Source: Pseudomonadota bacterium
GTDB taxonomy: Bacteria; Pseudomonadota; Gammaproteobacteria; Burkholderiales; Casimicrobiaceae
Assembly: GCA_018241765.1 (NCBI GenBank)
Contig: JAFEDD010000005.1
Location: 1 to 64,000 of the forward strand
Length of the DNA: 64,000 bases
Direction: 5' to 3'
Position 1 is the stretch's first letter; each line of letters starts with the position of its first letter. The position numbers were made by a program, and so were the translations under genes. Below the pieces are notes generated by a model. The model saw only the letters and a program-made list of their open reading frames with translations, had not been told where the DNA came from and made no database searches. Shown one piece after another: positions 5,436-30,740 of this stretch.

Positions 5436-6573
5436 ATGACCGCCGCCGAACTCGTCCACGAACTGACTCCCGCCATCACCGCCGCCCGCGAGAAGGTGGA
5501 TGAGCTTCGGGGGTTACTTTGACTACGAAAAAAAGTCCCACCGCCTGCTCGAACTGAACGCCGAGCTGGAAAACCCGAAGATTTGGGAAGACCCGACCCG
5601 TGCGCGCGAACTCGGCCGCGAGCAGCGCATGGTGGGCGACATCGTCGCGCGTCTCGATGCGCTCGGCGCCGAAGCGCAGGGCGCCGGTGAACTGCTGGAA
5701 CTCGCCGAACTCGAGGGCGACGAGCCGACGCTGCGAAGCCTCAAACACGACGTCGAGCGCCTGACAGCCGCGCTCGCCGACCTCGAGTTCAAGCGCATGT
5801 TTTCCGGCGAGCAGGACGAGGCGAACTGCTTCCTCGACATCAACGCCGGCTCGGGGGGCACCGAAGCGCAGGATTGGGCGCAGATGCTCTTTCGCATGTA
5901 CTGCCGCTATGGTGAGCGTCGGGGCCTCAAGGTCGACGTGCTCGAAGAATCCGAAGGCGATGTGGCCGGGCTGAAGAGCGCGTCGATCAAGCTTTCGGGT
6001 GACTACGCCTATGGCTATCTGCGCACCGAGACGGGCATCCATCGCCTCGTGCGCAAGAGCCCGTTCGACAGCAACGCGCGGCGGCACACGTCGTTCGCGT
6101 CGGTGTTTGTCTACCCCGAGGTCGACGATTCGATCGAAATCGAGATCAACCCGTCGGACGTCCGCACCGACACTTATCGAGCGAGCGGGGCCGGCGGTCA
6201 GCACATCAACAAGACCGACTCCGCCGTGCGCCTGACGCACATTCCGACCGGCATCGTCGTGCAGTGCCAGGACGGGCGCAGCCAGCACAGCAACCGCGAG
6301 GTCGCGTGGAAGCGACTGCGCTCGCGCCTCTACGAGCACGAAATGCGAAAGCGCATGGAGGCGCAGCAAAAACTCGAAGACAGCAAGAGCGACATCGGCT
6401 GGGGCCACCAGATCCGAAGTTACGTGCTCGACCAATCGCGCATCAAGGACCTGCGCACCGGCTATGAGGTGGGCAACACGCAGGCGGTGCTCGACGGCGA
6501 TCTCGATGGCTTCATCGAGGCGTCGTTGAAAGCTGGCGCCGACCTTGCGGCGGGCGGCGACGCCGACGAATGA
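5436..6573 (+). CDS. prfB: Peptide chain release factor 2, expressed through a programmed +1 frameshift
   Basis: RF2 recognises UGA and UAA stop codons and triggers peptide release. Translation starts at ATG 5436 ([12 protein letters not shown]) and runs 28 codons to CTT (5517-5519), followed by an in-frame TGA at 5520-5522. Reading T-skipped at 5520 continues as [12 protein letters not shown] to the TGA at 6571-6573, giving about 378 residues. The slip site has the classic layout: a Shine-Dalgarno-like CGGGGG at 5508-5513, three bases, then CTTTGAC. The second-frame product carries the SPF motif ([12 protein letters not shown]) for UGA/UAA recognition and the catalytic GGQ motif ([11 protein letters not shown]). 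High cellular RF2 favours termination at the TGA, giving autoregulation, as established for this family. Confidence 0.97.
5508..5523 (+). promoter_or_regulatory. prfB programmed +1 frameshift site
   Basis: CGG GGG TTA CTT TGA C: an internal Shine-Dalgarno-like purine run, a 3-nt spacer, the slippery CTT and an in-frame TGA stop followed by C. The downstream RF2 sequence is only accessible in the +1 frame. This matches the known autoregulatory frameshift site of bacterial prfB. Confidence 0.95.
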
Positions 6574-6647
6574 GCGACAGCACGAAGGCCGTTCGCGCCA
6601 TCGACATCCCGCCCACCTGAACCGAGACGAACGCCACTCCGATCACC

Positions 6648-7238
6648 ATGCCCGCCATCGACCAACCGCGCCTGCTCGATCTGCCGCCCCGACTCGTGGG
6701 CGAACGGATCGTGCTGCGTCCCTATGCGCCGGGCGACGGCACGCTCTTGTTTGCCGCGTTGGAGGAAGACCGCGCCGATCTGTGCCGCTGGATGGCGTGG
6801 CCGGCGACGCAACATCGGACGCTCGACGAGGCCGAGTCCTACGTGCGCAACCTGGCCGGCAAATGGCTCACCCGCGACGCGCTGATTCTCGGCATCTTTT
6901 CGCCGGACGGGCGGACGCTCTACGGTGGCACCGGCTTTCACGGCTTTGACTGGAAAGTGCCGTCGCTCGAAATGGGCTGGTTCCTGCGCAAGAGCGCGCG
7001 CGGTCGCGGCATCGCCACCGAAGCGCTTCGGCTGTGCTGCCGGCTTGCGTTCGAGCACATCGGCGCCAATCGCGTGTGGGGCACGATCGACGTGCTGAAC
7101 GAACCCAGCTGGCGGCTTGCCGAGCGCGCCGGCTTCACGCGCGAGGCGCACCTGCGCGGCGAATGCCGCGACCACCACGGCACGCTGCGCGACACCTTCG
7201 TCTACGCGATGCTCGCGCGCGAGTGGAATTCGACCTGA
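6648..7238 (+). CDS. GNAT-family N-acetyltransferase (RimJ/RimL-like)
   Basis: A 196-residue protein of the RimJ/RimL acetyltransferase type, which transfers acetyl from acetyl-CoA to an amino group, often a protein N-terminus or a small metabolite. Visible features: N-terminal RIVLRPYAPGD, the central EMGWFLRKSARGRGIATEAL segment containing the R-G-R-G-I-A acetyl-CoA-binding loop, and a C-terminal VLNEPSWRLAERAGFTREA motif typical of the family. It lies 74 bp after prfB in the same direction, so it may share transcription. The substrate cannot be told from sequence. Confidence 0.9.
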   Translation: MPAIDQPRLLDLPPRLVGERIVLRPYAPGDGTLLFAALEEDRADLCRWMAWPATQHRTLDEAESYVRNLAGKWLTRDALILGIFSPDGRTLYGGTGFHGFDWKVPSLEMGWFLRKSARGRGIATEALRLCCRLAFEHIGANRVWGTIDVLNEPSWRLAERAGFTREAHLRGECRDHHGTLRDTFVYAMLAREWNST

Positions 7239-7239
7239 C

Positions 7240-7357
7240 AGCTTTTTGCTGAAAGACCCATCCACAACGGGCTTCCAGCGTTGAAAAGGCGAAAGTCGAC
7301 TCCATGGCTTTCCGCGCTCCAAGCCCGTCATGGATGGGCTTGTCGAAGCAAAGCTGT
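7240..7357 (+). repeat. ERIC-like palindromic repeat, copy A
   Basis: One of five ~120-bp copies in the window of an imperfect palindrome. It opens with AGCTTTTTGCTGAAAG, carries a central GTCGACT, then AAGCCCGTCATGGATG, and closes with a GCAAAGCT-type inverted end. The left half contains CATCCACAACGGGCTT, the inverse of the right-half motif, so the whole unit could fold as a long hairpin. It occupies most of the gap between the acetyltransferase and the TRAP permease genes, at the end of both. Confidence 0.85.
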
Positions 7358-7396
7358 TTGCTCCGAAGATGCGTGCGCGGCCGCCGTCCTTCGCGC

Positions 7397-8872
7397 TCAG
7401 CCGCCCTTGGCGTAGACGATGTCGCGCAGGAACAGCGAGATCGGCGGCACATAGGTGATGATCATCAGGCAGGTGAGCACGACCAGCACGAACGGCAGCA
7501 GTTGCGAAATGATGCGGTCGAGCGAAATGCGCGCGACGGTGCAGGCCGCGAACAGATTGACGCCGAAGGGCGGTGTGATCATGCCGAGCGCCAGATTCAC
7601 CACCATGATGATGCCGAAGTGCACGGCATCGATGCCGAAGTGCGTGGCGACCGGCGCGAGGATCGGCGCCAGCACGATGATCGCGGCGCTCGTCTCGATG
7701 AACATGCCGATGACGAACAGCGCCGCGTTGACACCGAGCAGAAAGAGCATCGGGCTTTGCAACCATTCCTTCAGGAACTGCCCGATCGCATCGGGAACGC
7801 CGGCGCGCGTGACGAGGTAGGCGAAGAGCCCCGCGTTGGCGATGATGAACATGATGACCGCCGACGACAGCGCACTCTTGCGAAACACCGCGACGAGATC
7901 GCGCAGCGCGATCTCACGGTACACCACCATGCCGACGAAGAGCGCGTAGACCACCGCCACGGCGGACGCTTCGGTGGGGGTGAACACGCCGCCATAGATG
8001 CCGCCCAGGATGATGACGGGCATCATCAGCGCGTAGGCGGCGCGGTCATTGAGCCGTGCGCGCAGTGCGGGGATCAGCGACAGCACGACGAAGTAGAGCG
8101 CGAAGGCCGTGATGCCGACGAGGTCCGTGTAGCGATCGAGCGTGCGCTCGTCGTGGTTCGCCGCGAAGAGCAGCGGGCCGATGACGCGGTTGCCGAGCCA
8201 CAGCGCGACGATGCCGCCGGCGATCAGCGCGAGGTCCGCCAACGCCGTCATCGCCGGCAGTTTGCCGACGCCGTCGTCGCGCCCCCAGCCGCGACGCTTG
8301 CAGAGCACGAAGACATAGAGCATCAGCCCGCCGCCGATCAACAGGCCCGGCCCGAAGCCCGCGATGAACAGCTCGCCGATCGAAATTTCCGCCGACACGC
8401 CGTAGAGAATCATCGGGATCGATGGCGGGATGATGACCCCGAGTTCGGCACTGGTCGCCTGCAGTGCCGCCGCCCAGTGCGTCGGGTAGCCGTGCTTGAT
8501 CAGCGCCGGAATCAGGATCGCGCCAATGGCGAAGGTGGTGGCCACCGATGAGCCCGACACGGCCGCGAAGATCATGCAGGTCAGCACGCAGGTCATCGGC
8601 AGGCCGCCCTGCACGCCGCCGACCAGACTCTTCGCGAAATCGACCAGTCGCCGCGAGATGCCGCCGGTTTCCATCAGATTGCCGGCAAGGATGAAGAAGG
8701 GGATCGCCGCCAGCGGAAACTTGTTGATGGCGGAGAACATCTCCTTCACCGACACCAGCATGTTCAGCTTGCCGACGCTGATGCCGAGCACGGCGGCGAG
8801 GCCGATCGAGACGGCCACCGAGACGGTGAGTGCAAAGCACAGCACCATCGTGACGAGCATGACACCGGACAT
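7397..8872 (-). CDS. dctM: TRAP transporter large permease (DctM)
   Basis: The 12-TM channel subunit of a tripartite ATP-independent periplasmic transporter, importing an organic acid with a sodium gradient. The 491-residue sequence is membrane-spanning throughout. It carries family signatures such as AIPFFILAGNLMETGGIS, TCMIFAAVSGSSVATTFAIG, ELGVIIPPSIPMILYG and GGIYGGVFTPTEASAVAVVYA, and ends LPFVLVVLTCLMIITYVPPI. Canonical DctM is about 425 residues; the extra 60 or so lie between about residues 230 and 300 and include two added hydrophobic stretches, forming an unusually large mid-protein insertion. It follows the small permease by 15 bp, so translation is probably coupled. Confidence 0.95.
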   Translation of the reverse strand: MSGVMLVTMVLCFALTVSVAVSIGLAAVLGISVGKLNMLVSVKEMFSAINKFPLAAIPFFILAGNLMETGGISRRLVDFAKSLVGGVQGGLPMTCVLTCMIFAAVSGSSVATTFAIGAILIPALIKHGYPTHWAAALQATSAELGVIIPPSIPMILYGVSAEISIGELFIAGFGPGLLIGGGLMLYVFVLCKRRGWGRDDGVGKLPAMTALADLALIAGGIVALWLGNRVIGPLLFAANHDERTLDRYTDLVGITAFALYFVVLSLIPALRARLNDRAAYALMMPVIILGGIYGGVFTPTEASAVAVVYALFVGMVVYREIALRDLVAVFRKSALSSAVIMFIIANAGLFAYLVTRAGVPDAIGQFLKEWLQSPMLFLLGVNAALFVIGMFIETSAAIIVLAPILAPVATHFGIDAVHFGIIMVVNLALGMITPPFGVNLFAACTVARISLDRIISQLLPFVLVVLTCLMIITYVPPISLFLRDIVYAKGG

Positions 8873-8887
8873 GATCTGGGCCCCGCG

Positions 8888-9382
8888 TTATTGCGCGACC
8901 TCGAGTTCGAGGCGTCGCGGGTCGAGGAAGTTGGCGATGATGCCGAGCACGGCGAAGCCACTGCCCACCGGCATCGCCAGGTAGGCCCAGAACATCGAAT
9001 GGCTCTCCAGCCCGATCATCGTCTGCACGCGACCGCGCAGCGCGTAGTCCCAGCCGATCACGATGATGAGCCCGATCAGCAGCAGCGAGGCGATCATGAC
9101 GAGGGCGTCGAGCACGCGCCGCCAGCGCGCGTTGGCCATGCGGTGCAGCACGTCCACGCTCACCATCGCACCTTGCCGAAACGCCATCGGGATGGCGAGG
9201 AACACCATCCAGATCAGCGAGAAGCGGATCAGCACCTCGGTCCACTCGGCGGGCGCTTCGAGGATGAAGCGCATGATGATCTGAAAGACGCCGAGCGCCG
9301 AGGCGAGCGCAAGCATCGCGCAGGCGGCGTACATCGACACCGCCGTCGTGAACCGCTCGAAGCGCAGAAATGCCTGCTTCAT
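8888..9382 (-). CDS. dctQ: TRAP transporter small permease (DctQ)
   Basis: The 4-TM small membrane subunit that couples the periplasmic binding protein to DctM. It is 164 residues with four hydrophobic segments. The motif EWTEVLIRFSLIWMVFLAIP and the following RQGAMVSVDVL are typical of DctQ. It sits between dctP (111 bp upstream) and dctM (15 bp downstream) on the same strand, the usual dctPQM order. Confidence 0.93.
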   Translation of the reverse strand: MKQAFLRFERFTTAVSMYAACAMLALASALGVFQIIMRFILEAPAEWTEVLIRFSLIWMVFLAIPMAFRQGAMVSVDVLHRMANARWRRVLDALVMIASLLLIGLIIVIGWDYALRGRVQTMIGLESHSMFWAYLAMPVGSGFAVLGIIANFLDPRRLELEVAQ

Positions 9383-25276: not shown

Positions 25277-25540
25277 ATGAATCTTTCGCGTCTTTCCAGC
25301 AAAGGTCAACTTGTCATTCCCAAAGCGGTGCGCGCGTGGCCGCCCGGTACTGAATTCTCAGTGATTCGCACCGATGATGGTTTGCTGTTGACTCCTGTTG
25401 CCACAATTAGCGCGACCACGGTTGATGCGGGTTTTGGCGTGCTTGCCGGGATCGCCCGCGCTCGCCAAAAACCTACGGGCGACGATGATGCGGCGCTGCT
25501 AGCTGCGCTGCGCAAGGACGACGAAGCTAGCAAGCGATGA
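25277..25540 (+). CDS. vapB: VapB-type antitoxin, AbrB/MazE-like DNA-binding domain (first pair)
   Basis: An 87-residue antitoxin. The N-terminal swapped-hairpin AbrB motif reads SRLSSKGQLVIPKAVR ... FSVIRTDDGLLLTPV; the C-terminal part (residues about 45-87, rich in Asp/Arg/Ala) should wrap the toxin. Its stop overlaps the toxin start (ATGA at 25537). GTAAG and CTTAC half-sites flank the presumed promoter at about 25235-25264, a plausible site for autorepression by the complex. It is the first gene after rarA, at the left end of the accessory module. Confidence 0.9.
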   Translation: MNLSRLSSKGQLVIPKAVRAWPPGTEFSVIRTDDGLLLTPVATISATTVDAGFGVLAGIARARQKPTGDDDAALLAALRKDDEASKR

Positions 25541-25932
25541 TCGCACTCGACACCAACGTCGTTCTGCGTTACCTGCTCAACGACGATGTGCGGCAGAGCC
25601 AAAGGGCACGCGCACTTCTGTCCAGCGGCGAGCGCTTCTCGCTACCCATCACCGTTGTGCTCGAAGTGGCTTGGGTGCTGCGCAGTTATGGTGCGGATGC
25701 AAACGCTGTGGCGCTCGGGCTGCGCACGCTACTGGGGCTGCCGGAGCTAGCCGTTCAGGAGCGCGACGCGGTCGTCCGCGCGCTCGCGTGGCAGGCGCAC
25801 GGCATGGACATTGCCGACGCGTTGCACTTGGCGCTTTCGCATCACAGTTCGCAGTTCAAAACGTTCGACAAGAATTTAGCCAAGGCGGCAAAGCGAGTTG
25901 CAGCAAAACCGATGGTCAGCGCACCCGATTAA
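25537..25932 (+). CDS. vapC: VapC-type PIN-domain ribonuclease toxin (first pair)
   Basis: A 131-residue PIN-domain toxin, expected to cleave RNA when not bound by its antitoxin. Acidic metal-binding residues are visible: Asp in MIALDTNVVLRYLLNDD, Glu in VVLEVAWVLR, and Asp in GMDIADALHLAL and TFDKNLAK. It overlaps the antitoxin by 4 bp. A palindromic element with 18-bp inverted repeats begins at the first base after its stop codon. Confidence 0.92.
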   Translation: MIALDTNVVLRYLLNDDVRQSQRARALLSSGERFSLPITVVLEVAWVLRSYGADANAVALGLRTLLGLPELAVQERDAVVRALAWQAHGMDIADALHLALSHHSSQFKTFDKNLAKAAKRVAAKPMVSAPD

Positions 25933-26112
25933 GGAAACGCTGAACAAGTCGCCGGCGCGCATCGCATCCGCGTTTTGGGCGCCGGCACGCATTCCGGTGC
26001 ATTGCTTCGTCGGAAATGCTCGCCATAGCTACGGCTACGGCTACGGCTACGGCTATGGCTGGGCTGTGCCGTCCTTCGCGCGCTGCATCGCCAGGACTTG
26101 TTCAGCGTTTCC
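25933..26112. mobile_element. MITE-like element with perfect 18-bp terminal inverted repeats
   Basis: GGAAACGCTGAACAAGTC (25933-25950) and its exact reverse complement (26095-26112) bound a 180-bp non-coding unit. The interior contains a hexamer tandem repeat (GCTACG x4 then GCTATG, 26028-26057). No transposase is encoded, so it would be a non-autonomous element. It directly abuts the vapC stop codon. An obvious target-site duplication is not seen at the ends. Confidence 0.75.
26028..26057 (+). repeat. Hexanucleotide microsatellite (GCTACG)n
   Basis: Four copies of GCTACG followed by one GCTATG, inside the 180-bp inverted-repeat element. Short tandem runs of this kind can change copy number by slippage. 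It lies about 190 bp upstream of the DUF1566 gene, outside any convincing gene. Confidence 0.8.
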
Positions 26113-26242: not shown

Positions 26243-27085
26243 ATGCTCAGTCAGCTTGTTACCAACCGCGTAGTCCGCCGCGCCCCGGCGCTGCTCAGCG
26301 CCGCATGGGCGTTCATCGTGCTGCTGGCGGCACCGGGTATCCACGCCCAAACCCGCCCACTCAACGACACCGGGCAGACCCAGTGCTTTGATGCGACCAA
26401 TGCCCCCGTCGCGGTCACTCAAGCCAATTGCGGCGACAGCGCCGCCCGTCCGCGGCAAGACGCCCGCTACGGGCGCGACGCTCAGGCCGCTGCGGGCACG
26501 CTCAGCAAAATCGGCGCAGGCGCGGCAGGCTTTGATTTCACCAAAATCGCCAACAACGGCAGCACGCTGCCCGCCAGCGCCACACTCGGCAGCAACCCCG
26601 CCGACTGGGCCTGCACCAAAGACAACGTCACCGGCCTGATCTGGGAAGTCAAAACCACGAGCGGTCTGCGCGACGCCGCACACACCTACACCTGGTATTC
26701 GACCGACGCCACCACCAACGGCGGCAACGCAGGCACGGCGGGCACCGACACCTGCGGCGGCACACTCGCCGCCGCGCCGTACAACAACCAGTGCAACACA
26801 CGGAATTTCACCGCCGCCGTCAACGCGGCCATGCTCTGCGGCGCGAATGATTGGCGCATGCCCACAGAGAAAGAACTGCTCAGCATCGTGCATGCGGGGG
26901 CGGTCAACCCGAGCATCGATAGCGCTTACTTCCCAAATGCCCCGGTCGGGTACTGGTTTTGGACCCGCTCGACTTACGCGGCGAACCCGGCCTTCGCGTG
27001 GATTGTCGACTTCGACGTTGGCGTTTCCAATGCCGACCTTAAGAGCTACAACTACGCCGTCCGGTTGGTGCGTGGCGGACAGTAA
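26243..27085 (+). CDS. Secreted DUF1566 (Lcl C-terminal, C-type-lectin-fold) protein, candidate hypervariable target
   Basis: A 280-residue exported protein. The start at 26243 (GTG at 26231 is an alternative) yields a signal peptide ending IHA-Q. The C-terminal DUF1566 domain shows DNVTGLIWEVKT, NDWRMPTEKELLSIVHAG, YWFWTRSTYAANPAFAWIVDFD and the terminal NYAVRLVRGGQ, directly before the stop. The last 99 bp are a variable segment paired with one in the next gene (see findings): the two differ only at first and second codon positions, mostly where one copy has adenine. DUF1566 domains are known recipients of diversity-generating retroelements, and a C-terminal location is the standard one. 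Likely role is surface ligand binding. Confidence 0.85.
   Translation: MLSQLVTNRVVRRAPALLSAAWAFIVLLAAPGIHAQTRPLNDTGQTQCFDATNAPVAVTQANCGDSAARPRQDARYGRDAQAAAGTLSKIGAGAAGFDFTKIANNGSTLPASATLGSNPADWACTKDNVTGLIWEVKTTSGLRDAAHTYTWYSTDATTNGGNAGTAGTDTCGGTLAAAPYNNQCNTRNFTAAVNAAMLCGANDWRMPTEKELLSIVHAGAVNPSIDSAYFPNAPVGYWFWTRSTYAANPAFAWIVDFDVGVSNADLKSYNYAVRLVRGGQ
26984..27082 (+). other. Candidate DGR variable region VR1
   Basis: 33 codons at the 3' end of the first DUF1566 gene. Compared with 27712-27813 there are 14 base differences plus one codon indel. None is at a third codon position, and 13 involve an adenine in one of the two copies. The last 30 bp (TACGCCGTCCGG onward, 27053-27082) are identical in both, as expected of the invariant 3' portion next to an initiation-of-mutagenic-homing site. 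Confidence 0.6.
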
Positions 27086-27117
27086 TTTGACTCTTGGTCT
27101 GCATTGGCGAGGTCACT

Positions 27118-27216
27118 GTGGCTCGGTATGACCATCTGCCGATATGGCGTACTGCGATGGAGCTTGCCGTGGCTGTTGAATCCGCCGTGGCGCATTTTCC
27201 GCGCGCGCATCGCTAT
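27118..27216 (+). pseudogene. Avd-like / four-helix-bundle (23S rRNA IVP family) fragment
   Basis: A GTG start at 27118 opens MARYDHLPIWRTAMELAVAV, continuing ESAVAHFPRAHRY. This is the N-terminal helix of the four-helix-bundle family that includes the Avd accessory protein of diversity-generating retroelements (typical form: YDHLPI..A..L...... FPR.HRYTLG). The homology stops at Tyr 27216; the remaining ~80 residues are missing. The frame stays open and runs into the next DUF1566 gene. A purine-rich GGCGAGG precedes the start. It appears to be a truncated relic; a full-length Avd would be about 115 residues. Confidence 0.55.
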
Positions 27217-27261
27217 CCGCGCGTACTCAACTCAAACCTTAACCATCAAAAGGTCATCGCC

Positions 27262-28992
27262 ATGCCTGCCAGTCAATCTCTCGCGCGATCGGTGTCGCGT
27301 CGCTGCCTGCACGCCGCTGCAGCCGTCCTTGCCTCGTTGGCATTGACGCACGCCGCCTTTGCGGCCACCTGTTCCGGCAACCTTGGCGCGAGCACCACGC
27401 CGACCAGTGATTTTGTGGTGAACGCCAACGGCACGGTGACCCACACGCCCACAGGCCTGATGTGGAAGCAATGCAACGAAGGTTTGAGCGGTCCGGCTTG
27501 CGCCATCAGCACGGTGAGTCCTCAAGATTGGCCCACCGCATTGACCACCGCGCGCAACAGCACGTTTGCCGGATACACGGATTGGCGCTTGCCGACCAAA
27601 CAAGAGCTTGAGTCGCTGGTGGATAGCACCTGCTTCAGTCCCGCGATCAATGACACGGTGTTTCCGGCGACAGTTGCTGACTGGACGTGGACGAGCACAA
27701 CCTTCTTCGGCGACCCGGCCTTCGCGTGGGTTGTCGGCTTCAACGATGGCAATTCCCTTGCCGGCAATAAGAGCGGCAACCGCTACGCCGTCCGGTTGGT
27801 GCGTGGCGGACAGTCCTTTGACGCTTTGGCGGCGTTAGCCGCGCAGACCCTAACGTTTGGCGCAGCGCCGAGTGGTGTCGTGGCCGGTGGCTCGGCGACC
27901 GTTGCCGCGACGAGTGCCAGCCCGAATTCGGGCAACCCAATCAGCTACAGCAGCCTGACGCCCGCCGTGTGCAGCGTGAACGCGAGCACCGGTGCGGTCA
28001 GCGCACTGACGGCAGGCACCTGCACCATCGCCGCCGATCAGGCGGGCAATGCGAGCTACGCGGCGGCGGCGCAGGTGACGCAAAGCTTCACCATCATTTT
28101 GGCGGCGCAGACCCTAACGTTTGGCGCGGCGCCGAGTGGTGTCGTGGCCGGTGGCTCGGCGACCGTTGCCGCGACGAGTGCCAGCCCGAATTCGGGCAAC
28201 CCAATCAGCTACAGCAGTCTGACACCCGCCGTGTGCAGCGTGAACGCGAGCACCGGTGCGGTCAGCGCACTGACGGCAGGCACCTGCACCATCGCCGCCG
28301 ATCAGGCGGGCAATGCGAGCTACGCGGCGGCGGCGCAGGTGACGCAAAGCTTCACCATCATTTTGGCGGCGCAGACCCTAACGTTTGGCGCAGCGCCGAG
28401 TGGTGTCGTGGTCGGTGGCTCGGCGACCGTTGCCGCGACGAGCGCCAGCCCGAATTCGGGCAACCCAATCAGCTACAGCAGCCTGACACCCGCCGTGTGC
28501 AGCGTGAACGCGAGCACCGGTGCGGTCAGCGCACTGACGGCAGGTACCTGCACCATCGCCGCCGATCAGGCGGGCAATGCGAGCTACGCGGCGGCGGCGC
28601 AGGTGACGCAAAGCTTCACCATCATTTTGGCCGCGCAGACCCTAACGTTTGGCGCAGCGCCGAGTGCTGTCGTGGTCGGTGGCTCGGCGACCGTTGCCGC
28701 GACGAGTGCCAGCCCGAATTCGGGCAACCCAATCAGCTACAGCAGTCTGACACCCGCCGTGTGCAGCGTGAACGCGAGCACCGGTGCGGTCAGCGCACTG
28801 ACGGCAGGCACCTGCACCATCGCCGCCGATCAGGCGGGCAATGCGAGCTACGCGGCGGCGGCGCAGGTGACGCAAAGCTTCACCATCAGCGCGGCGGTCG
28901 TGCCTGCGCTTGACTGGCAGGCGTTGTTGGCGCTGGCGCTTTTGCTCGTTGTCGCCGGATCGATGCGCTTGCGTTTGCGTCGTCAGCGTTGA
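27262..28992 (+). CDS. Secreted DUF1566 protein with four identical Ig-like repeats and IPTL-like C-terminal tail
   Basis: A 576-residue exported protein starting at 27262 (preceded by AAAAGG). A signal peptide (MPASQSLARSVSRRCLHAAAAVLASLALTHAAFA) leads to a DUF1566 domain (HTPTGLMWKQCNEG, YTDWRLPTKQELESLVD, WTWTSTTFFGDPAFAWVV ... YAVRLVRGGQ). Four 88-residue repeats follow, each with AAQTLTFGAAPS, YSSLTPAVCSVN, GTCTIAADQAGNASYAAAAQVTQSFTI; similar modules occur in the kelch protein at 52092. The tail VPALDWQALLALALLLVV ... RLRLRRQR is IPTL-CTERM-like and probably a sorting or anchor signal. The variable segment 27712-27813 is internal rather than C-terminal, which is unusual for a retroelement target. 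Confidence 0.85.
   Translation: MPASQSLARSVSRRCLHAAAAVLASLALTHAAFAATCSGNLGASTTPTSDFVVNANGTVTHTPTGLMWKQCNEGLSGPACAISTVSPQDWPTALTTARNSTFAGYTDWRLPTKQELESLVDSTCFSPAINDTVFPATVADWTWTSTTFFGDPAFAWVVGFNDGNSLAGNKSGNRYAVRLVRGGQSFDALAALAAQTLTFGAAPSGVVAGGSATVAATSASPNSGNPISYSSLTPAVCSVNASTGAVSALTAGTCTIAADQAGNASYAAAAQVTQSFTIILAAQTLTFGAAPSGVVAGGSATVAATSASPNSGNPISYSSLTPAVCSVNASTGAVSALTAGTCTIAADQAGNASYAAAAQVTQSFTIILAAQTLTFGAAPSGVVVGGSATVAATSASPNSGNPISYSSLTPAVCSVNASTGAVSALTAGTCTIAADQAGNASYAAAAQVTQSFTIILAAQTLTFGAAPSAVVVGGSATVAATSASPNSGNPISYSSLTPAVCSVNASTGAVSALTAGTCTIAADQAGNASYAAAAQVTQSFTISAAVVPALDWQALLALALLLVVAGSMRLRLRRQR
27712..27813 (+). other. Candidate DGR variable region VR2
   Basis: 34 codons in the DUF1566 domain of the second gene, paired with VR1. 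Codon pairs (VR1/VR2) such as ATT/GTT, GAC/AAC, GTT/AAT, AAT/CTT, CTT/AAT and GAC/GGC are all explicable by changes at adenines of a shared AAT/AAC-rich template. Flanking codons are identical, including wobble positions. The 30-bp constant end is 27784-27813. Confidence 0.55.
27844..28899 (+). repeat. Four tandem 264-bp repeats within the second DUF1566 gene
   Basis: CAGACCCTAACGTTTGGCG recurs at 27844, 28108, 28372 and 28636, exactly 264 bp apart, with only scattered single-base differences among units. Each unit encodes 88 residues. The near identity points to recent expansion and makes copy-number change by recombination likely. Confidence 0.95.
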
Positions 28993-30063: not shown

Positions 30064-30081
30064 CCGCGCGATCCGTTCCAG

Positions 30082-30740
30082 GTAGGCGCGGGCTCGACCG
30101 CGCTTGGGTGCGTCCGATGACGCGTGGTGTGAGGTGCCACCGCCCGCGAGCGACGTCAAGCCGTCGCCTGCGACCGGTAGGCGCGGGCTTGACCGCGCTT
30201 GGGTGCGTCCGATTCCCGGTCGTGTGAGGCGCCACGGCCTGCAAGCGACGTCAAGCCGTCGCCTACAACCGGTAGGCGCGGGCTCGACCGCGCTTGGTTG
30301 CGTCCGATTCCCGGTCGTGTGAGGTGCCACCGCCCGCGAGCGACGTCAAGGCGTCGCCTACAACCGGTAGGCGCGGGCTTGACCGCGCTTGGGTGCGTCC
30401 GACGACGCGTGGTGTGGGTCGCCACGGCCCGCGAGCGACGTCAAGCCGTCGCCTACAACCGGTAGGCGCGGGCTTGACCGCGCTTGGTTGCGTCCGATTC
30501 CCGGTCGTGTGAGGTGCCACCGCCCGCGAGCGACGTCAAGCCGTCGCCTACAACCGGTAGGCGCGGGCTCGACCGCGCTTGGGTGCGTCCGATTCCCGGT
30601 CGTGTGAGGTGCCACGGCCCGCGAGCGACGTCAAGCCGTCGCCTACAACCGGTAGGCGCGGGCCCGAATCGCGGCGCCTCCGTTGAGGGTAGGCGCGGGC
30701 TTGACCGCGCTTGGTTGCGTCCGATGACGGGTCGCGCGGG
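30082..30740 (-). repeat. Tandem palindromic repeat array 1 (95-bp units)
   Basis: GTAGGCGCGGGCT recurs at 30082, 30177, 30272, 30367, 30462 and 30557 with a 95-bp period, then a 38-bp truncated unit at 30652 and a partial unit at 30690. Each unit begins GTAGGCGCGGGCTTGACCG and ends CGACGTCAAGCCGTCGCCTA, so the ends are inverted relative to each other and each arm is itself a hairpin. The unit is the reverse complement of those in arrays 2 and 3. It fills the 780-bp gap between the EamA gene and htpG. Confidence 0.95.

Follow-up and report, generated by a model that had tools for sequence, protein, structure and literature searches.

Two neighbouring lectin-like genes with the footprint of a diversity-generating retroelement whose core was probably lost in cis

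DUF1566 has been called the most common target domain of diversity-generating retroelements (DGRs) (PMC6642488). In Treponema denticola, target genes in isolates lacking the reverse transcriptase (RT) and the template were termed core-DGR remnants, and gains and losses were proposed (PMC4891356). In Thiohalocapsa PB-PSB1, loci with missing or pseudogenised machinery are reported, several of them still diversified, and action in trans was explored (PMC10907252). Genes with a variable region (VR) and no local RT are also described as RT-less target-VR fragments in Nanoarchaeota (PMC4372165) and as the cyanobacterial gene all3226 (PMC7517822); the authors of these two reports read them as fossils or remote targets, or as loci from which parts were removed after variant selection. 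Here we describe two neighbouring DUF1566 (Lcl_C) genes, target 1 and target 2, in a 64,000-nucleotide stretch of DNA (the window) from contig JAFEDD010000005.1 of a Casimicrobiaceae genome. We conclude that this locus is probably a DGR whose core has been deleted, with both targets frozen, or nearly so, since a recent loss.

Adenine-directed differences between the two variable regions

VR1 (33 codons) and VR2 (34 codons), which end the Lcl_C domains of targets 1 and 2, differ at 14 bases, distributed 7/7/0 over codon positions 1/2/3, and by one codon indel. Were the differences spread evenly over the codon positions, the probability of finding none of the 14 at the third position would be 0.003. 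Adenine is present in one copy at 13/14 of them, compared with a rate of 40/70 at positions 1 and 2 upstream (p = 0.005). The indel is best placed before codon 24; with the next two placements, the differences involving adenine become 15/15 and 16/16. The third-position divergence of the VRs is 0.00 (0 in 33 codons), with a 95% upper bound of 0.087 per site. Upstream of the VRs, 76 aligned codons of both Lcl_C domains differ at 38/32/48 bases by codon position and, to judge by this pattern, these parts are ordinary distant paralogues.

At their 3' ends the VRs share 31 identical bases. With up to 3 mismatches allowed, these are the only two occurrences of this stretch in the window, and 100 shuffles gave an expectation of 0.00. 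It stands at what we take to be the place of the DGR initiation-of-homing sequence. In five stretches, hairpins 3' of the VR did not clearly exceed the level in shuffled sequence, an exact search of viral contigs with the 24-base VR end gave no match, and the own genome holds no third copy of the VR segment.

These counts reproduce exactly those of the first-pass annotation, which had been made from the letters of the window and had also noted the ordinary divergence just 5' of the segments. The shared end that it put at 30 bp proved one base longer. The interval that it marked, 26243-27813, starts at the target 1 ATG and stops within target 2, the frame of which runs to 28992.

Intact cassettes in relatives and a stub of avd between the targets

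A template peptide was inferred from the two segments of the window and searched for in 64 genomes of the family, with matches in 11/64. In G041, which belongs to another genus of the same family, the peptide matched a true template within an intact cassette ordered target 1 - avd - template - RT - target 2, with an RT of SQ type (IGNLTSQ, YVDD). All differences between the G041 VRs and this template are at adenine (8/8 and 12/12). Seven intact cassettes with template and RT were compared (Table 1); summed over their 14 VRs, and with the decayed locus L236 excluded, 213/219 VR differences are at template adenines. The intact templates read A-W-N/I-V-N-F-N-N-G-N, as does the peptide inferred for the window.

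The variable codons of the window fall on AAY codons of the seven intact templates in 8 to 10 of 9 to 11 aligned cases (p from 5e-3 to 8e-7, the templates being related to each other). Because the window's own template is missing, this test of adenine restriction is indirect, drawing on VR1 against VR2 and on related templates. The first pass had proposed both a DGR footprint and derivation of the segments from one AAY-rich template, and the intact templates bear out both proposals. Intact DGRs with Lcl_C targets resemble the window in the two target types and their order, in the position of the VR at the Lcl_C end, in the invariant 3' end, in the adenine-directed differences and in the start position of avd. 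Unlike them, the window is without template, RT and most of avd.

What is left of avd was detected by tblastn with the G041 avd as query: the match covers 27118-27249 with 52% identity (E 1.2e-10), and the likeness is clear over 34 codons. It is the sole avd match in its own genome at E <= 0.1. The stub starts 32 bp past the stop codon of target 1, and in the seven intact cassettes this distance is 8-85 bp. About 2.6 kb lies between the two Lcl_C domains in G041. A complete accessory gene is thus absent from the window, and the order that remains, target 1 - avd stub - target 2, indicates that a core was deleted in cis. The exact breakpoint would lie in 27220..27261. Since the stub lies between the targets, the core must once have been in cis. 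The first pass had left diversification in trans, a distant cassette and a fossil as possibilities for a footprint without RT; the RT-less footprint stands, and the stub favours a fossil over a distant cassette.

With the same G041 avd query, stubs were also detected in G011, G022 and G004, where the stub has a stop codon, and weaker ones in G006 and G008. In two sister species (L075 in G004:C160 and L083 in G006:C556) the spacers are alignable end to end and share one common junction and a decaying avd stub. These two loci were compared at AAY-type columns for signs of rewriting after the loss in cis. Target 1 differs at 22/26 position-1/2 sites versus 5/13 third positions (p = 0.008), and target 2 at 15/26 versus 7/13 (p = 1.0), so that an excess of change at positions 1 and 2 is seen in target 1 only.

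We propose the following history. The ancestral cassette would have had the order target 1 - avd - template repeat - RT - target 2, and its core would have rewritten the C-terminal VR of both lectin-like proteins from a single AAY-rich template, at template adenines only; the VRs carry the footprint of such rewriting. A deletion, probably a single event, reaching from within avd to just before target 2 would then have taken out the template, the RT and all of avd but the 34-codon stub. The stub is present and the core is absent. Both target frames remained open and would now be frozen, or nearly so, at the sequences last written. Because there are 0 third-position differences in 33 codons, the loss of the core or the last rewriting would have been recent.

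A history without any DGR would combine gene conversion of one paralogue by the other with subsequent strong selection on residues at the protein surface. Such conversion is conceivable for neighbouring paralogues, and lectin loops can come under diversifying selection. However, conversion would level the variable codons too, the changes are confined to positions 1 and 2 of codons that are AAY in related templates, with the third letters unaltered, and the two genes flank an avd stub. We give this explanation almost no credence.

Only slightly more credible, and still highly improbable, is an assembly artefact. The genome (G000) is a 3.24 Mb draft in 76 contigs, 90% complete, with the window at C55:1-64000, and a core could have been lost from such a draft since VRs and template are repeats. 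However, the junction lies 34 codons into avd, outside the VR and template repeats, and the stubs at other loci break off at different points of avd, one of them with a stop codon. Incomplete cores are likewise present in the records of two named strains, Thiobaca trueperi DSM 13587 and Thiocystis violacea DSM 208.

Table 1. Features of the locus, with positions in the window, and the intact cassettes used for comparison
Feature	Position	Strand	Basis
Target 1: 280 aa, C-terminal DUF1566/Lcl_C domain, VR at C-terminus	26243..27085	+	Pfam PF07603, 98.5 bits (cut-off 34.9)
VR1 (variable region 1)	26984..27082	+	14 base differences from VR2, of which 13 involve A and 0 are at a third codon position
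Invariant 3' end of VR1	27053..27083	+	Identical to 27784-27814 over 31 bases
avd stub: first 34 codons, GTG start; rest of accessory gene missing	27118..27219	+	tblastn with G041 avd
Candidate deletion junction and target 2 leader; an intact cassette would hold the avd 3' part, template repeat and RT here	27220..27261	+	Comparison with G041
Target 2: 576 aa, Lcl_C domain, four Ig-like repeats, hydrophobic C-terminus	27262..28992	+	PF07603, 115.9 bits; Big-like PF22359, Big_2 PF02368
VR2 (variable region 2)	27712..27813	+	Same VR1/VR2 comparison; variable codons fall on AAY codons in the templates of intact cassettes
Invariant 3' end of VR2	27784..27814	+	31 bases identical to 27053-27083
Intact cassettes	G041:C9 (JACPUX010000001.1); L194, L207, L217, L237, L243, L245		Template and RT present

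A structure predicted for the Lcl_C domain of target 2 from 39 sequences (pLDDT 95) has a C-type-lectin fold, and target 2 is in this model a C-type-lectin-fold target with its VR at the end of the domain. The best match of the model in the PDB is the C-terminal domain of Legionella Lcl (8q4e; E 1.3e-4, TM 0.63); C-type lectins come next, with weaker matches above E 0.001. Target 1 is 42-57% identical to eight target-1 proteins of other loci, and PADLOC assigned it no family. Both targets probably act as binding proteins that are secreted or exposed at the surface. Four 264-bp tandem units with 98% matches (27841-28888) encode the Ig-like repeats of target 2, a pattern that indicates recent tandem growth. 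Directly upstream of target 1 is a gene pair encoding a MazE-like antitoxin and a PIN-domain protein (25277-25932), and 5.5 copies of a GCTACG hexamer lie at 26028-26060. A 95-bp unit is repeated in about six tandem copies with 90% matches at 30081-30667.

No core found in the assembly and a graded series of core loss

The first pass had suggested searching the genome for a template repeat and a DGR-type RT, and neither was found in the 90%-complete assembly. The RT was sought with the RVT_1 profile and with a sister DGR RT as query (E <= 0.01), and the template repeat with VR DNA (E <= 10) and with the template peptide. The G041 RT, searched against the same assembly at E <= 10, gave two weak matches (E 0.014 and 0.25) with stops, which we dismissed as noise. 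The locus thus has the composition of a DGR remnant: footprinted targets, neither RT nor template, and a trace of the core in cis. Four Lcl_C matches in the genome form two pairs, one on C55 and one on C6. The second pair (L013:3010-6755), again of a target 1 and a target 2, has a VR third-position divergence of 0.36 and, by this measure, is older than that of the window; a gene for an IS200-like (Y1) transposase lies between its targets, and its target 2 ends with an IPTL-CTERM sorting domain.

Within the genus, 12/17 genomes, our own counted, have Lcl_C genes. When Lcl_C ends (42 codons) were compared in 1596 pairs, the lowest four third-position divergences were those of three G011 pairs and the window pair. 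The G011 pairs show 1 to 3 third-position differences versus 18 to 23 at positions 1 and 2. A search of G011 with its own VR returned, besides the three VRs, a single chance match of 26 bases and no template. A regular-expression scan for the SQ motif, in which L067, L102 and L103 yielded no row, found it, of the RT loci fetched from the genus, in G001 and G012 alone, the two with strong matches to the sister DGR RT. These loci (L068 in G001:C194 and L069 in G012:C17) are other DGRs, with an SQ-type RT (IGNLTSQ) and, nearby, a repeat of 126 bp at 85% identity in the first and of 122 bp at 83% identity in the second. The gene adjoining L068 presumably encodes a formylglycine-generating-enzyme-like domain, judged by eye from its motif. 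For this reason, and because their RT has no match in G000 (E <= 0.01), we rejected the idea that these two DGRs serve the targets of the window. Also rejected as a template was G004:C151:28775-28898 (L108:1500-1630), which at first resembled one but reads as the terminal part of a broken Lcl_C gene in which codons have been substituted. This orphan Lcl_C end, with its VR-like stretch, lies apart from all listed Lcl_C genes of G004.

More widely, one genome per species was scanned for 84,980 species with nine target-1 queries, and the best 80 of 173 loci were profiled with RT, Lcl_C and avd profiles, the last built from five full-length proteins. The stages seen are intact cassettes, a truncated RT (L179, L236), an avd stub with an RT fragment (L182), avd without RT (L190, L200, L242), avd stubs, and bare pairs; for bare pairs without a footprint, the former presence of a core is not demonstrated. 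The median VR third-position divergence is 0.01 for intact cassettes (n = 6), 0.03 with partial RT (n = 3), 0.00 for avd without RT (n = 3), 0.09 for avd stubs (n = 9) and 0.58 for bare pairs (n = 53). Over these 74 pairs, core-loss class and VR third-position divergence are correlated (Spearman 0.69, p = 8e-12), and the upstream control shows no significant trend (Spearman 0.18, p = 0.13); scars differ from bare pairs (p = 6e-7) and intact cassettes from scars (p = 0.025), with p-values that overstate independence, several loci coming from one genome or genus.

The 74 pairs come from 85 loci, of which 11 without a full pair were dropped (L177, L196, L204, L217, L227, L234, L235, L241, L244, L075 and L084), among them the intact L217, the target-2 domain of which matched in two pieces, L241, which is cut by a contig end, and the stubs L204 and L075. 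L083 was counted as bare although it has a stub in the avd searches. Of the nine loci called as stubs, L226 (13 bits) and L229 (19 bits) are weak calls. One avd profile had been seeded with four stubs, for which its scores are circular; independent evidence for stubs comes from the single-query search with the G041 avd and from the profile of five full-length proteins. Exceptions to the trend are L182 (RT fragment, 0.39), L190 (0.25), L187 (0.29) and five bare pairs at about 0.10 or less.

Probably frozen targets, possible rewriting in trans and known systems

Given the same loss of the core in cis, the targets of the window might still be rewritten in trans by a core that lies on a different replicon or in the 10% of the genome that the assembly lacks. 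Several observations speak for this alternative and weigh against frozen targets. The absence of third-position differences between VR1 and VR2 also fits ongoing rewriting, and from an assembly that is 90% complete a core located elsewhere could be missing. Gallionella G101 has a core-less pair (L187:4020-4918) that agrees with the template carried by L245 on a different contig: position-1/2 differences are at template adenines in 19/19 and 17/18 cases, with only 1 and 3 third-position differences. A separate point, against the reading of a deleted core, is that the stub alone is not significant against the curated Pfam model (PF05635, E 0.21) and that even the full G041 avd falls below the curated cut-offs of DivGenRetAVD (NCBIfam, E 2.5e-11) and bAvd (Pfam, E 2e-8).

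The Gallionella sp. case (JAUYJO01) is likely, from its base differences, to be one of rewriting in trans. Upstream of the VRs, the L187:4020-4918 pair differs from the L245 targets at 12/81 and 16/92 third positions, and a second L187 pair (6325-8984, with an avd stub) does not match the L245 template, with 13 third-position differences each. In L236, the VRs are mutually alike (1 third-position difference) and each is unlike the adjoining template remnant (13 each), which likewise favours action in trans. The pattern in this locus, from Halochromatium sp. A10, is as if another template wrote both VRs. Trans activity has also been reported for Thiohalocapsa (PMC10907252).

Against rewriting in trans stands the failure to find RT or template in the window's own 90%-complete assembly. 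G011 is 98% complete and has three footprinted genes, yet it is without a template match, and neither of the two RTs fetched from it has the SQ motif. The G041 RT was also searched against 38 genomes behind 42 of the 80 loci, with matches in 16/38. Of the core-less pairs with a divergence of 0.15 or less, 14/17 are in genomes without an RT match and 3/17 (L179, L236 and L216) are with fragments only, a count that includes the window's own pair and genomes whose completeness is not stated. On balance, we consider rewriting in trans unlikely for the window, although it is by far the more serious of the alternatives, and frozen targets the probable state.

A wider reading, to which we would give about even chances, is that the paired Lcl_C genes of Pseudomonadota are the leavings of hit-and-run DGR cassettes. 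Two surface receptors would be diversified, the engine would be deleted repeatedly in separate lineages, and the chosen variants would be kept. The VR third-position divergence would then serve as a clock since the last rewriting, and the window would be among the freshest losses.

DGRs are usually found via their RT. The footprinted targets described here are often without an RT adjoining them or, in the genomes searched, anywhere else, and surveys based on the RT would therefore miss them. A simple test for paired DUF1566 genes is to compare their ends codon by codon and to search for an avd stub between them. With the graded series, it becomes testable from sequence alone how long diversification lasts and whether loss of the engine fixes variants.

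In the openly licensed literature that we searched, we found neither an avd-stub series nor a VR-divergence clock, which does not prove their absence. The T. denticola remnants are like the window in that targets are left without RT and template; they occur within one species, and the accessible text describes no avd stub or graded series (PMC4891356). Thiohalocapsa PB-PSB1 is like the window in that machinery is missing at loci. It differs in that, as far as the accessible text goes, complete loci of each class persist in that one genome (PMC10907252), whereas no core was found in the genome of the window. The nanoarchaeal fragments and all3226 are single cases, the nanoarchaeal targets are of another family, and no stub-bearing series is described in the accessible parts of either report (PMC4372165, PMC7517822). 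DGR remnants as such are already published, and the graded series is the newer part.

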